NCBI RefSeq assembly: GCF_022690685.1 | Contig: NZ_JALCYY010000046.1 | Span: 1-40,367, forward strand | Length of the DNA stretch: 40,367 bases | Direction: 5' to 3' | From: Anaeromyxobacter terrae | Lineage (GTDB): Bacteria; Myxococcota; Myxococcia; Myxococcales; Anaeromyxobacteraceae | In this document: piece after piece, positions 34,852 through 38,666 of the stretch | How positions within the stretch are numbered: the first letter of the stretch is position 1 | Layout: each line of letters starts with the position of its first letter | Made by a program: the position numbers and the translations under genes | The notes under the pieces: generated by a model | What the model was told of the DNA's origin: nothing | Databases searched by the model: none | The model's input: only the letters and a program-made list of their open reading frames with translations

Positions 34852-35661
34852 TCAACCCACCGGCGCGATCCGCGCGATCGACTGGATCTGCGAGCGGAAC
34901 ACGCGAGAGGGCTTGCCCCAGTTCCCCGAGCTGAAGCCCTGGCAGATCCGCTCGTAGGCCTCCGGGTGCTGGTGCGGAGCGAACTCCTCCACGACGCCCT
35001 GCAGCTCCCAGCCGCTGAAGTCGTCGAGGTCGAGCACGAGCCGCGTCTCGTGGCGGTTCGCCTTGAGGTTCATGTACGTCTTCAGGGCGAGGCCGTCGCC
35101 GTGATAGAGCGCGAGCCGCTCGCCGTCGACCTCGTGGTGGAAGATGAATCGCGGCGAGATGTTGGCCGTCTCGCCCACGCCGACGAGCGCGTACCGCACG
35201 CCCGCGAGCGTCTCCTGCAGCTCCTCGAACGGGACGTTCTCGAAGAACTTGAGCGTGTAGGGGCTGTGGTGGACGGTGAAGATCTGGGCGCCCTTCACGA
35301 GCACCGCTCCGCCCTCGAGGTCCTCGAGCAGATCGCGCTCGGTCGCGCCGGGCGAGAGCGGGCGCGTCTTCACCTGGTAGCCCTGGTACTGCTCGACCCG
35401 CGTCATGTGGACCGTGAGGCACTCGCCCTTCTGCGGCCGGCGCACGATCGGACCGGTCAGGCGGATCTCGAGGTCGCGTCCCGTCGGACCGGGCTCGAGC
35501 TCGCGGATCCGGTTCACCGAAACGGCGGCGAACGTCCCTGCGAGGGAGGTCGTGCCCATGAAGGACAGGACCTTCTCGTACTTGACCGTCGGGAAGCGGC
35601 TCGCCTGTTTCGCCTTCTGCTCCTCCAGGAACGCGAGGAAGCTGTGAAGGTCGCTCGACAC
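34852..35661 (-). CDS. Uncharacterised 269-aa protein
   Basis: The GTG start at 35661 is supported by GAGGTGA 5 nt upstream. The protein has no signal peptide or membrane span and is rich in beta-strand-like alternation. Segments such as SLAGTFAAVSVNRIRE and CLTVHMTRVEQYQGYQVKT recall flavin-binding split beta-barrels of the pyridoxamine-phosphate oxidase type, but no cofactor motif is certain. It ends within about 55 bp of repeat copy D and is divergent from thiE. It looks like an intact, well-expressed gene; function is not assigned. Confidence 0.75.
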   Translation of the reverse strand: MSSDLHSFLAFLEEQKAKQASRFPTVKYEKVLSFMGTTSLAGTFAAVSVNRIRELEPGPTGRDLEIRLTGPIVRRPQKGECLTVHMTRVEQYQGYQVKTRPLSPGATERDLLEDLEGGAVLVKGAQIFTVHHSPYTLKFFENVPFEELQETLAGVRYALVGVGETANISPRFIFHHEVDGERLALYHGDGLALKTYMNLKANRHETRLVLDLDDFSGWELQGVVEEFAPHQHPEAYERICQGFSSGNWGKPSRVFRSQIQSIARIAPVG

Positions 35662-35707: not shown

Positions 35708-36325
35708 ATGGGCGTCCCCGTTGTCCACCTGATCACGGATCGCAGGCTCGCGCGGGATCTCCCCGCGCGCGTCTCCGCCGCGCTCGCCGGACTGCCGCCC
35801 GGCCGGGTGCTCGTCCAGCTGCGGGAGAAGGATCTCGGCGGGCGCGAGCTGCTCGCGCTCGCCCGCGCGCTCCAGACAGTCTGCCGCGGGGCGGGGCAGC
35901 GCCTCATCGTGAACGACCGGCTGGACGTGGCGCGGGCTGCCGGCGCCGACGGGGTACACCTGCCCTCCGCCGGCATCCCGGCCGCGGACGCGCGCCGGCT
36001 GCTCGGGCCGGACGCGCTCGTCGGCGTCTCCTGCCACTCGGTCTCCGAGGTGCGCCGCGCGCGCGACGCCGGCGCGAGCTTCGCGACGGTGAGCCCCGTG
36101 TACGACACGCCCTCGAAGCGCGCGTACGGGCCGCCCATCGGGCTCGCGGTGCTGCGCGAGGCCGCGGCGCAGGGGCTGCCGGTCATCGCGCTCGGCGGGG
36201 TGACGCCCGCGCGCGTGCCCGAGCTGCTCGCCGCCGGCGCGCACGGCGTCGCGGCGATCCGCGCCTGGCTCGTGGGCGACGATCCCGCCGGCGCGGTCAG
36301 TGCGCTGCTGCCCGGCGCGGGTTGA
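35708..36325 (+). CDS. thiE: Thiamine-phosphate synthase ThiE
   Basis: The 205-aa TIM-barrel protein joins the thiazole and pyrimidine moieties of thiamine. Signatures seen are LITDRRL, VQLREKDL, LIVNDRLDVA with ADGVHLP, VGVSCHS, SPVYDTPSK and ALGGV. TenI, the related aminotase-like isomerase, is an alternative, but the phosphate-binding and pyrimidine-binding residues read as ThiE. ATG 35708 lacks a clear ribosome site. It lies about 1.1 kb from thiSG but in a separate unit. Confidence 0.9.
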   Translation: MGVPVVHLITDRRLARDLPARVSAALAGLPPGRVLVQLREKDLGGRELLALARALQTVCRGAGQRLIVNDRLDVARAAGADGVHLPSAGIPAADARRLLGPDALVGVSCHSVSEVRRARDAGASFATVSPVYDTPSKRAYGPPIGLAVLREAAAQGLPVIALGGVTPARVPELLAAGAHGVAAIRAWLVGDDPAGAVSALLPGAG

Positions 36326-36354: not shown

Positions 36355-36490
36355 GAGCGAAGCGAGCCCGCCGGGGCGCCGCCGCGACCGCGGCGAAGCC
36401 GCTCGCGGTGGCGCACGGGACCCGGCGAGCAGGGGTAGGGCCCCGACGACGGCGTCCAGCCGTCGGCGGGGCGGGGGCGCAGCCCCCGTT
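36355..36490 (+). repeat. Mosaic hairpin repeat, copy C
   Basis: Homologous to copy B in the same orientation. It carries GCGGC-GAA-GCCGC, GCCCCGACGACGGC with GCCGTCGGCGGGGC around GTCCA, and the terminal GGGGGC-GCA-GCCCCC. Its last base belongs to the stop codon of the converging methyltransferase gene; the thiE stop is 30 bp to the left. Confidence 0.85.
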
Positions 36491-37155
36491 CAACCGACCC
36501 GGAGCGCGAGGAAGTACTGGTAGGGCAGGAACGTCCGCTCCTCGGCGACGTCGAGCCCGGCCGCGCGCGCGGCGGCGAGGAAGTCCTCGCGCGAGACCTT
36601 GTGGTCCGGCGGCGGCCCGACCGGCAGCTCGCCGGCATGGAAGTCCACGTTCACGATCCGTCCGCCCGGGGCGAGCCGCTCCGAGAGCCGGCGCAGGTAC
36701 CGCGGCCCGTCGGGGAAGTGGTGGAACGTATTCACGATGAGGATCGCGTCGCACGGCTCGGGCGGCAGCCCCTCGCCCTCGGGCGCGAGCAGCGGGTGGA
36801 CGTTCGCGACGCCCGCCTCCCGCGCGCGCTCCTCGAGCAGCGCGATCATGCGCGGCTCGACGTCGATGGCGTACACGCGGCCGGTCGGGCCCACCGCGCG
36901 GGCGAGGCGGAGGGCGAAGTAGCCGGGCCCCGCGCCCGCGTCGCACGCGACGCCGCCCGGTCGGAGCCCCAGCGCGGCGACCACCTCGTCCGGCTTCTGC
37001 CACTCGACGCGGGCAGGATCCTCGAGCCGCGCGAGGTAGCCCTCGAGGTCCTCGGGGTTGCCGTGGCGGTCGCGGCCAGGCGCATGGGGGTGCCCGTGGT
37101 CGTGGCCGTGCTCCGCGGGGTGTGCGTGGCCCGGGTGCTTGCGGTGCGTGCTCAT
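36490..37155 (-). CDS. Class I SAM methyltransferase with His-rich N-terminus
   Basis: The 221-aa protein has a Rossmann methyltransferase core: motif I DAGAGPGYFALRLA, the acidic end of strand 2 (AIDVEPRM), the motif IV-like AILIVNTFHHFPD, and ERLAPGGRIVNVDF. The first 31 residues contain ten histidines interleaved with Gly, Pro and Ala, like metal-chelating tails. It is the third gene of a minus-strand unit after a rhodanese and a MauE/DoxX-like protein (33-bp gap). The substrate is unknown; a metal or metalloid link is only suggested by the His tail. Confidence 0.85.
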   Translation of the reverse strand: MSTHRKHPGHAHPAEHGHDHGHPHAPGRDRHGNPEDLEGYLARLEDPARVEWQKPDEVVAALGLRPGGVACDAGAGPGYFALRLARAVGPTGRVYAIDVEPRMIALLEERAREAGVANVHPLLAPEGEGLPPEPCDAILIVNTFHHFPDGPRYLRRLSERLAPGGRIVNVDFHAGELPVGPPPDHKVSREDFLAAARAAGLDVAEERTFLPYQYFLALRVG

Positions 37156-37188
37156 GCGCGAGGAGAGCCCTCGGCCGCTCGAGAAGGT

Positions 37189-37656
37189 TCAGCCCTCGGT
37201 GGCCGCGGAGGGGGCGCGGTCCGGCTCGCTCGCCGCGGCGGAGCGTCGTGGGAGGAGCCGCCCCGGGCCGCGCAGGAGCAGCGCGAGCGCGACGGCGAGC
37301 ATGCCGGCGTCGCGCAGCACCGTGAGCCAAGTTGCGCTCTCGTTCCCGCCGAAGCAGCCGCAGCGCAGGTCGATGCCGCGGAGCAGCGCCTGCGAGAGGC
37401 CGAGCGTGAACACCGCGAGGAGGCCGGTCGCCACGAGCGCGGCGCCGCGGGCGAGCCGCCCGGTGACGAGCAGGAGGCCGAGCGCGAGCTCGACGCCGAT
37501 CACGGCCGCCGCCGCGACGGGGACGAGGGACGGCGGCACGAGCCGGTAGTTCGCGAGCGTCTCGGCGAACGCCGCCATGTCCGGTAGCTTCGTCCCCGCG
37601 GCGTACAGGAACGTCCCGCCGAGGCCGATGCGGAAGAGGGCGAGGAGCAGGTTCAC
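37189..37656 (-). CDS. MauE/DoxX-like redox-associated membrane protein
   Basis: The 155-aa protein has four predicted transmembrane helices and the motif DLRCGCFGG between helices 3 and 4, typical of MauE-type proteins linked to thiol-disulphide chemistry. The GTG start at 37656 has GGAGG 7 nt upstream and overlaps the rhodanese stop by four bases. Pairing with a rhodanese suggests a membrane sulphur or disulphide exchange couple. The C-terminal tail is Arg/Ala-rich and cytoplasmic. Confidence 0.85.
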   Translation of the reverse strand: MNLLLALFRIGLGGTFLYAAGTKLPDMAAFAETLANYRLVPPSLVPVAAAAVIGVELALGLLLVTGRLARGAALVATGLLAVFTLGLSQALLRGIDLRCGCFGGNESATWLTVLRDAGMLAVALALLLRGPGRLLPRRSAAASEPDRAPSAATEG

Positions 37657-38186
37657 CGGTGGGCCTCCGCGGGATCGTGGCAGGCGGGGCAGAAGCCGGA
37701 CGCGCCGGCGCCGCCCGCAGCCACCCAGGCCGGCCAGGCGCCCTCGAGGACGCGCACGTCGGGGAGCCCCTCGCGCTTCAGCCGGTGCGCGACCTCGTCG
37801 GCGAGCGCGCAGGTGTAGTCGCCGTCGTAGACGATCACGAGCGGGAACGCGCGCAGCGCGGCGACGGCGACCGCCTCGTCCGGGTGGCCGGCGGGCGGGA
37901 GGTGCACGGCGTTCGTGACGTGGCCGGCCGCGAACTCGCTCGCGCCCCGCGCGTCGGCGAACCCGGCCTTGCACGCGTCGCAGAGCCCCTTCGCCTCCTC
38001 GACCGCGATGCGCGGGGCCCTCGCCGCGGGCGCGGCACCCGCCACCGCGCACATCCCGGTGCCGCTCTCGGCGGCCGAGTGGACGGGCCGTGCGAGCGCC
38101 GCCGGCCGCGGGCTCGCGACGTTCCCGGCGAGCCCGAGGAGCGCCCCGGCGGCGACGATGAGGGCGGCCTCTGCGAGCGTTCGCAC
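37653..38186 (-). CDS. Membrane-anchored rhodanese-like protein, catalytic Cys replaced
   Basis: The 177-aa product has an N-terminal hydrophobic anchor (about 6-22), so the domain faces the periplasm. The rhodanese fold is recognised by FADARGASEFAAGHVTNAVHLP and VRVLEGAWPAW. The active-site position, usually Cys after VVY, is Asp121 (VIVYDGDYTC); a Cys occurs five residues later (C126). Two extra CxxC pairs are present: 69-72 and 166-169 (CPAC, near the C-terminus). Sulphurtransferase activity in the classical sense is unlikely; thiol-disulphide exchange is possible. The GTG start at 38186 is the most plausible, but no strong ribosome site is seen. Confidence 0.82.
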   Translation of the reverse strand: MRTLAEAALIVAAGALLGLAGNVASPRPAALARPVHSAAESGTGMCAVAGAAPAARAPRIAVEEAKGLCDACKAGFADARGASEFAAGHVTNAVHLPPAGHPDEAVAVAALRAFPLVIVYDGDYTCALADEVAHRLKREGLPDVRVLEGAWPAWVAAGGAGASGFCPACHDPAEAHR

Positions 38187-38273: not shown

Positions 38274-38666
38274 ATGGGCGTCCCCGTCTTCGAGATCTCC
38301 AAGGAGTTCATGTTCAGCGCCGCGCACCAGATCCGCTTCCACGGCGGGAAGTGCGAGCGGCTGCACGGCCACAACTGGCGGATCCGGGTCCACGCCCGCG
38401 CCTCCGAGCTGAACCGGATCGGCATGGTGATCGACTTCGCGGATCTCCAGAAGCTCGTCGGCGACATCGGCGGCCGCTTCGACCACCGGAACGTGAACGA
38501 GGTGCCGCCCTTCGACGAGCTGAACACCACCGCGGAGCTCCTGGCGCGCCACTTCTACGAGGAGGCGAACCGCGCGCTGCAGCAGCGCGAGGGCGGCCGG
38601 GTCCGGGTGTCGAAGGTCGAGGTCTGGGAGAACGAGGGCTCGCTCGCCGTCTACCGCGAGGAGTGA
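38274..38666 (+). CDS. queD: 6-carboxy-5,6,7,8-tetrahydropterin synthase QueD (6-PTPS family)
   Basis: The 130-aa enzyme makes 6-carboxytetrahydropterin, an early step of preQ0/queuosine synthesis. The zinc ligands H18, H31 and H33 (FSAAHQ and LHGHN), the catalytic Cys27 and the FDHRNVNE motif are all present, as is the C-terminal VEVWENEGS. Together with queA and tgt in this window it supports a complete queuosine pathway. A pterin-specific homologue cannot be excluded. Its 3' end overlaps the converging hemerythrin gene by 16 bp. Confidence 0.9.
   Translation: MGVPVFEISKEFMFSAAHQIRFHGGKCERLHGHNWRIRVHARASELNRIGMVIDFADLQKLVGDIGGRFDHRNVNEVPPFDELNTTAELLARHFYEEANRALQQREGGRVRVSKVEVWENEGSLAVYREE

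Follow-up and report, generated by a model that had tools for sequence, protein, structure and literature searches.

A rhodanese-like protein and a MauE-type membrane protein as a candidate envelope thiol-disulfide redox pair in Anaeromyxobacter and other Myxococcota

In the window analysed here, i.e. the whole 40,367-nucleotide stretch of Anaeromyxobacter terrae contig NZ_JALCYY010000046.1, three genes lie close together on one strand, and as far as sequence and gene order can tell, the real conserved unit among them is the first two genes only, encoding a rhodanese-like protein and a MauE-type membrane protein. On balance, we read these two as a thiol-disulfide redox module of the cell envelope that probably serves to shuttle disulfides there, and the third gene, a methyltransferase, as a neighbour belonging to the thi cluster. 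What supports this at the level of sequence is that the two genes are inherited together and coupled in a fixed manner, that they are fused in one relative, and that MauE has a conserved CGC; a pattern of cysteine loss and gain adds to this. The features of the locus are as follows.

37653-38186, minus strand: rhodanese-like protein, anchored, 177 aa, GTG start (assigned by PF00581 and orthologs); cysteines C46, C69, C72, C126, C166 and C169, with Asp121 at the position of the catalytic Cys
37189-37656, minus strand: MauE/DoxX-type membrane protein, 155 aa, CGCFGG motif, GTG start (PF07291)
37653-37656, minus strand: GTGA shared by the rhodanese stop and the MauE start, with exactly this 4-nt length of overlap in 16/16 genomes
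36490-37155, minus strand: class I SAM methyltransferase with a variable His-rich N-tail; a neighbour, outside the conserved module
38274-38666, plus strand: QueD/PTPS-like gene, named from its sequence; divergent, upstream of the rhodanese gene, and a neighbour kept in the family
35708-36325, plus strand: ThiE-like gene, named from its sequence; in sister genera the methyltransferase is co-directional with thiE

The first gene product scores 51.7 bits against the rhodanese model PF00581 (cut-off 22.2), and the second 102.8 bits against the MauE model PF07291 (cut-off 27), with a second and lower match to DoxX (PF07681, 36.1 bits, cut-off 23.6). The latter gene is the sole above-cut-off MauE match in the 5.65 Mb genome, whose nearest named match is Anaeromyxobacter soli SG29, where the rhodanese is 96% identical. 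The genes, strand and motifs that the initial annotation had described at this locus are borne out: the rhodanese has a predicted N-terminal membrane anchor (read from its sequence), Asp121 and two CxxC pairs (C69xxC72 and C166xxC169); the MauE-like CGCFGG protein matches PF07291 and overlaps it by the 4-nt GTGA; the methyltransferase has ten histidines within residues 1-31 (H4, 7, 10, 12, 16, 18, 20, 22, 24 and 31); and all three genes are co-directional and tightly packed, the MauE stop lying 33 nt from the methyltransferase start. Further along, an opposite-strand gene (34852-35650, minus strand) lies between the thiG-like and thiE-like genes, and A. soli (L032) has it too.

Orthologs were searched for first among the 60 nearest genomes and subsequently throughout Myxococcota. 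Including the window's own genome, 16 Myxococcota genomes contain a close rhodanese ortholog, and in every one of them the MauE gene follows 3' with the exact 4-nt overlap and position 121 is Asp, so that the catalytic cysteine is missing throughout this group. Since overlap and Asp121 both hold in 16/16 genomes, the pairing is not due to chance. CGC is invariant in the MauE alignment, and is present in every MauE copy that was read except one masked sequence. Searching plasmids with the MauE profile gave no match, and a scan of genome contigs returned only A. soli, plus one weak rhodanese without an adjoining MauE. In one genome (G043) the rhodanese (L108 128-703, minus strand) and a MauE fragment (L125 2-322, plus strand) are both at contig ends, and this pair may have been split by the assembly.

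The association extends to a second phylum, searched with a Bryobacteraceae genome as its centre, where a MauE match is present in 132 of 297 genomes. Neighbourhoods were inspected for the best 30 of these MauE loci, and 29 have a rhodanese on the same strand, mostly just upstream and often overlapping; the thirtieth (L135), which has no rhodanese, starts near a contig end. Among the same best 30 loci there is a single fusion, in which a rhodanese domain and, after it, a MauE domain are encoded by one open frame of 457 aa (L147 1501-2874, minus strand). The rhodanese domain of this fusion has a YC-x4-C loop, and the catalytic Cys of that loop is kept in 28 of the 29 second-phylum rhodaneses, most of which have just two cysteines, both in the loop. 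Selenocysteine in related rhodaneses with a TGA was also considered, in three stretches, and dismissed: a rhodanese frame could be read in L170 only, where a Cys occupies the active site and the TGA has the look of an ordinary stop codon.

The retained loop cysteine, together with the DoxX match of the MauE protein, could be taken to indicate a sulfane-sulfur or sulfide function, in which persulfide would be bound or sensed by the rhodanese via C126 or the CxxC pairs, with MauE linking that protein to the respiratory chain as in DoxD/DoxA-type sulfur oxidation. We consider this unlikely, however, as the catalytic Cys is replaced in two Myxococcota groups, by Asp (16/16) and by Gly (16/16), C126 is not universal, and the genes that join the pair are DsbA-like rather than genes of sulfur metabolism.

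The Gly group is a second set of Myxococcota loci, picked up from MauE matches over the phylum and the genes around them, in which the rhodanese-like protein has Gly at the catalytic position and MauE carries CGCFA. Directly downstream of the pair, 12 of the 16 loci encode a DsbA-like protein with the motif CARCPFC, and the strongest DsbA relatives adjoin MauE. The remaining four Gly-clade loci have neither a C-terminal CxxC nor an adjoining DsbA-like gene. Pairs of this clade that have no adjoining DsbA-like gene include L115, L116 4964-5458 and L119 4051-4545, and their genomes each hold a second pair that does have one (L123, L116 and L119). Further Myxococcota pairs show other combinations: L105 and L106 have the loop Gly and a C-terminal CxxC, and L107 retains the catalytic Cys and has no CxxC.

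In a tree of MauE proteins, the 16 Asp-group members fall on one side of a single branch (support 97/86), and the three labels Asp, Gly and Cys need three changes in all; the root of this tree is arbitrary, and therefore a Cys-to-Asp direction is our inference. Within the Asp clade, C46, C69, C72, C166 and C169 are each found in 15-16 of the 16 proteins and C126 in 14, the losses being C126 in two members and C69 and C169 in one. C46 is the only cysteine shared by the Gly clade (14/14 readable copies), and its column is the sole invariant Cys column in a mixed Myxococcota alignment. The correspondence between a C-terminal CxxC and a missing adjoining DsbA-like gene is strong by count, with few lineages involved and the four Gly-clade loci having neither, and a Fisher value on this link deserves no weight because of those few lineages and because the four loci of the neither type were left out.

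Conservation of C46 and two CxxC pairs in the Asp clade would also fit a metal chaperone or sensor, whose CxxC pairs would bind Zn, Cu or similar at the membrane, with MauE in a structural or transport role. Yet the coupling to MauE persists in relatives that lack the CxxC pairs, and no metal-handling gene is found among the immediate conserved neighbours, so we regard this possibility as a little less probable still than the sulfur-based one.

Returning to the redox module that we favour, the N-terminal helix would hold the rhodanese at the membrane with its domain outside the cytoplasm, and the CGC cysteines of MauE would pass electrons between the membrane and the rhodanese domain. Since the catalytic Cys is Asp in the window's lineage, classical persulfide transfer is not expected there; exchange would instead proceed via C46, which is juxtamembrane, and two pairs, C69xxC72 and, at the C terminus, C166xxC169. 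For the second-phylum version, it is the YC-x4-C loop that would supply the thiols for exchange, and in the sister group with Gly at position 121 a separate DsbA-like CPFC protein may have taken the exchange role. AlphaFold models built from single-sequence input were too weak to judge the proximity of the cysteines.

The methyltransferase has a different distribution from the pair. It is present in all nine genomes of the genus, as opposed to three of nine for the rhodanese-MauE pair, and in the six congeners without the pair its immediate neighbours are thiE on one side and the QueD-like gene on the other. At L092 and L094 (both g6), L095 (g3), L100 (g2) and L103 (g4) its orientation converges with that of the pair and matches that of thiE, which it overlaps by 4 nt at L094; at L101 it is about 2.4 kb from the pair, and at L093 it was not found in the neighbourhood. 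On this synteny, namely its presence without the pair and its co-direction with thiE, we read it as a thi-cluster neighbour whose shared orientation within the genus is incidental. The initial annotation had grouped all three genes as one thiol-redox and metal or metalloid methylation module, and when this trio was looked for in other genomes the same arrangement was seen only in two further species of the genus. In these three species the 33-nt spacing between MauE and the methyltransferase is identical and no terminator-like site was found between them, so that read-through from MauE into the methyltransferase would be possible. Nevertheless, a joint role in methylation appears very improbable, given that the methyltransferase occurs without the pair in most congeners, is convergent with it in four sister genera, and was not found beside it at loci outside the family; the same synteny across congeners and sister genera speaks strongly against a trio operon.

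An ArsM-type enzyme can likewise be discarded. Arsenite methyltransferases of the ArsM type have three or four conserved arsenic-binding cysteines, and orthologs of this methyltransferase have at most two recurring ones, some lacking one of them; its score against the curated ArsM model is 38.6 bits (cut-off 263), and its Pfam matches are to generic class I methyltransferases. The histidine tail is a run of variable length, with 2-12 His across orthologs. Thus, the thiol-redox part of the earlier proposal stands for the rhodanese and MauE, in view of the conserved pair, its fixed overlap, the one fusion and the DsbA-like third gene in relatives, and the parts concerning methylation and the trio are not supported.

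Several known systems resemble the pair in part. MauE has been assigned a speculated role in disulfide formation for methylamine dehydrogenase, and its function is still called speculative (PMC7794033). The protein studied here shares with that MauE, which acts with MauD in methylamine dehydrogenase maturation, a PF07291 score far over the cut-off, but its partner is rhodanese-like and its immediate neighbours are ThiE-like, QueD-like and methyltransferase genes, not mau genes. In Mycobacterium tuberculosis, DoxX, SodA and the sulfurtransferase SseA make up a membrane thiol-oxidoreductase complex (PMC6930017, PMC7907618); the likeness, which is at the level of genes, lies in a membrane protein of the DoxX superfamily (PF07681) and a partner of the sulfurtransferase type, whereas the rhodanese of the present pair is anchored and without its catalytic Cys, and its gene shows translational coupling to that of a MauE-type protein. 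Catalytically inactive rhodanese domains in which Asp or Gly takes the place of the catalytic residue have been described (PMC6272796), and although the site is the same, the present protein is a single-domain anchored one with extra cysteine pairs and is coupled to MauE. We regard the predicted module as a variant of the known MauE/DoxX-type redox modules. We found no prior description of a rhodanese-MauE pair in titles and abstracts of the open-access literature searched, and a profile of this MauE family matched no solved structure in the PDB.

More broadly, and rather tentatively, there may be a widespread redox system of the envelope whose MauE/DoxX membrane oxidoreductase works with a rhodanese fold in place of the usual thioredoxin-fold partner; some lineages would have lost the Cys of the rhodanese active site, the redox chemistry having passed to new Cys pairs or to a DsbA-like protein. 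A conserved and once-fused rhodanese partner provides a concrete handle on the electron-exchange partners of MauE, and the natural series of Cys-x4-Cys, Asp with CxxC, and Gly with DsbA constitutes a set of variants for locating the thiol chemistry.
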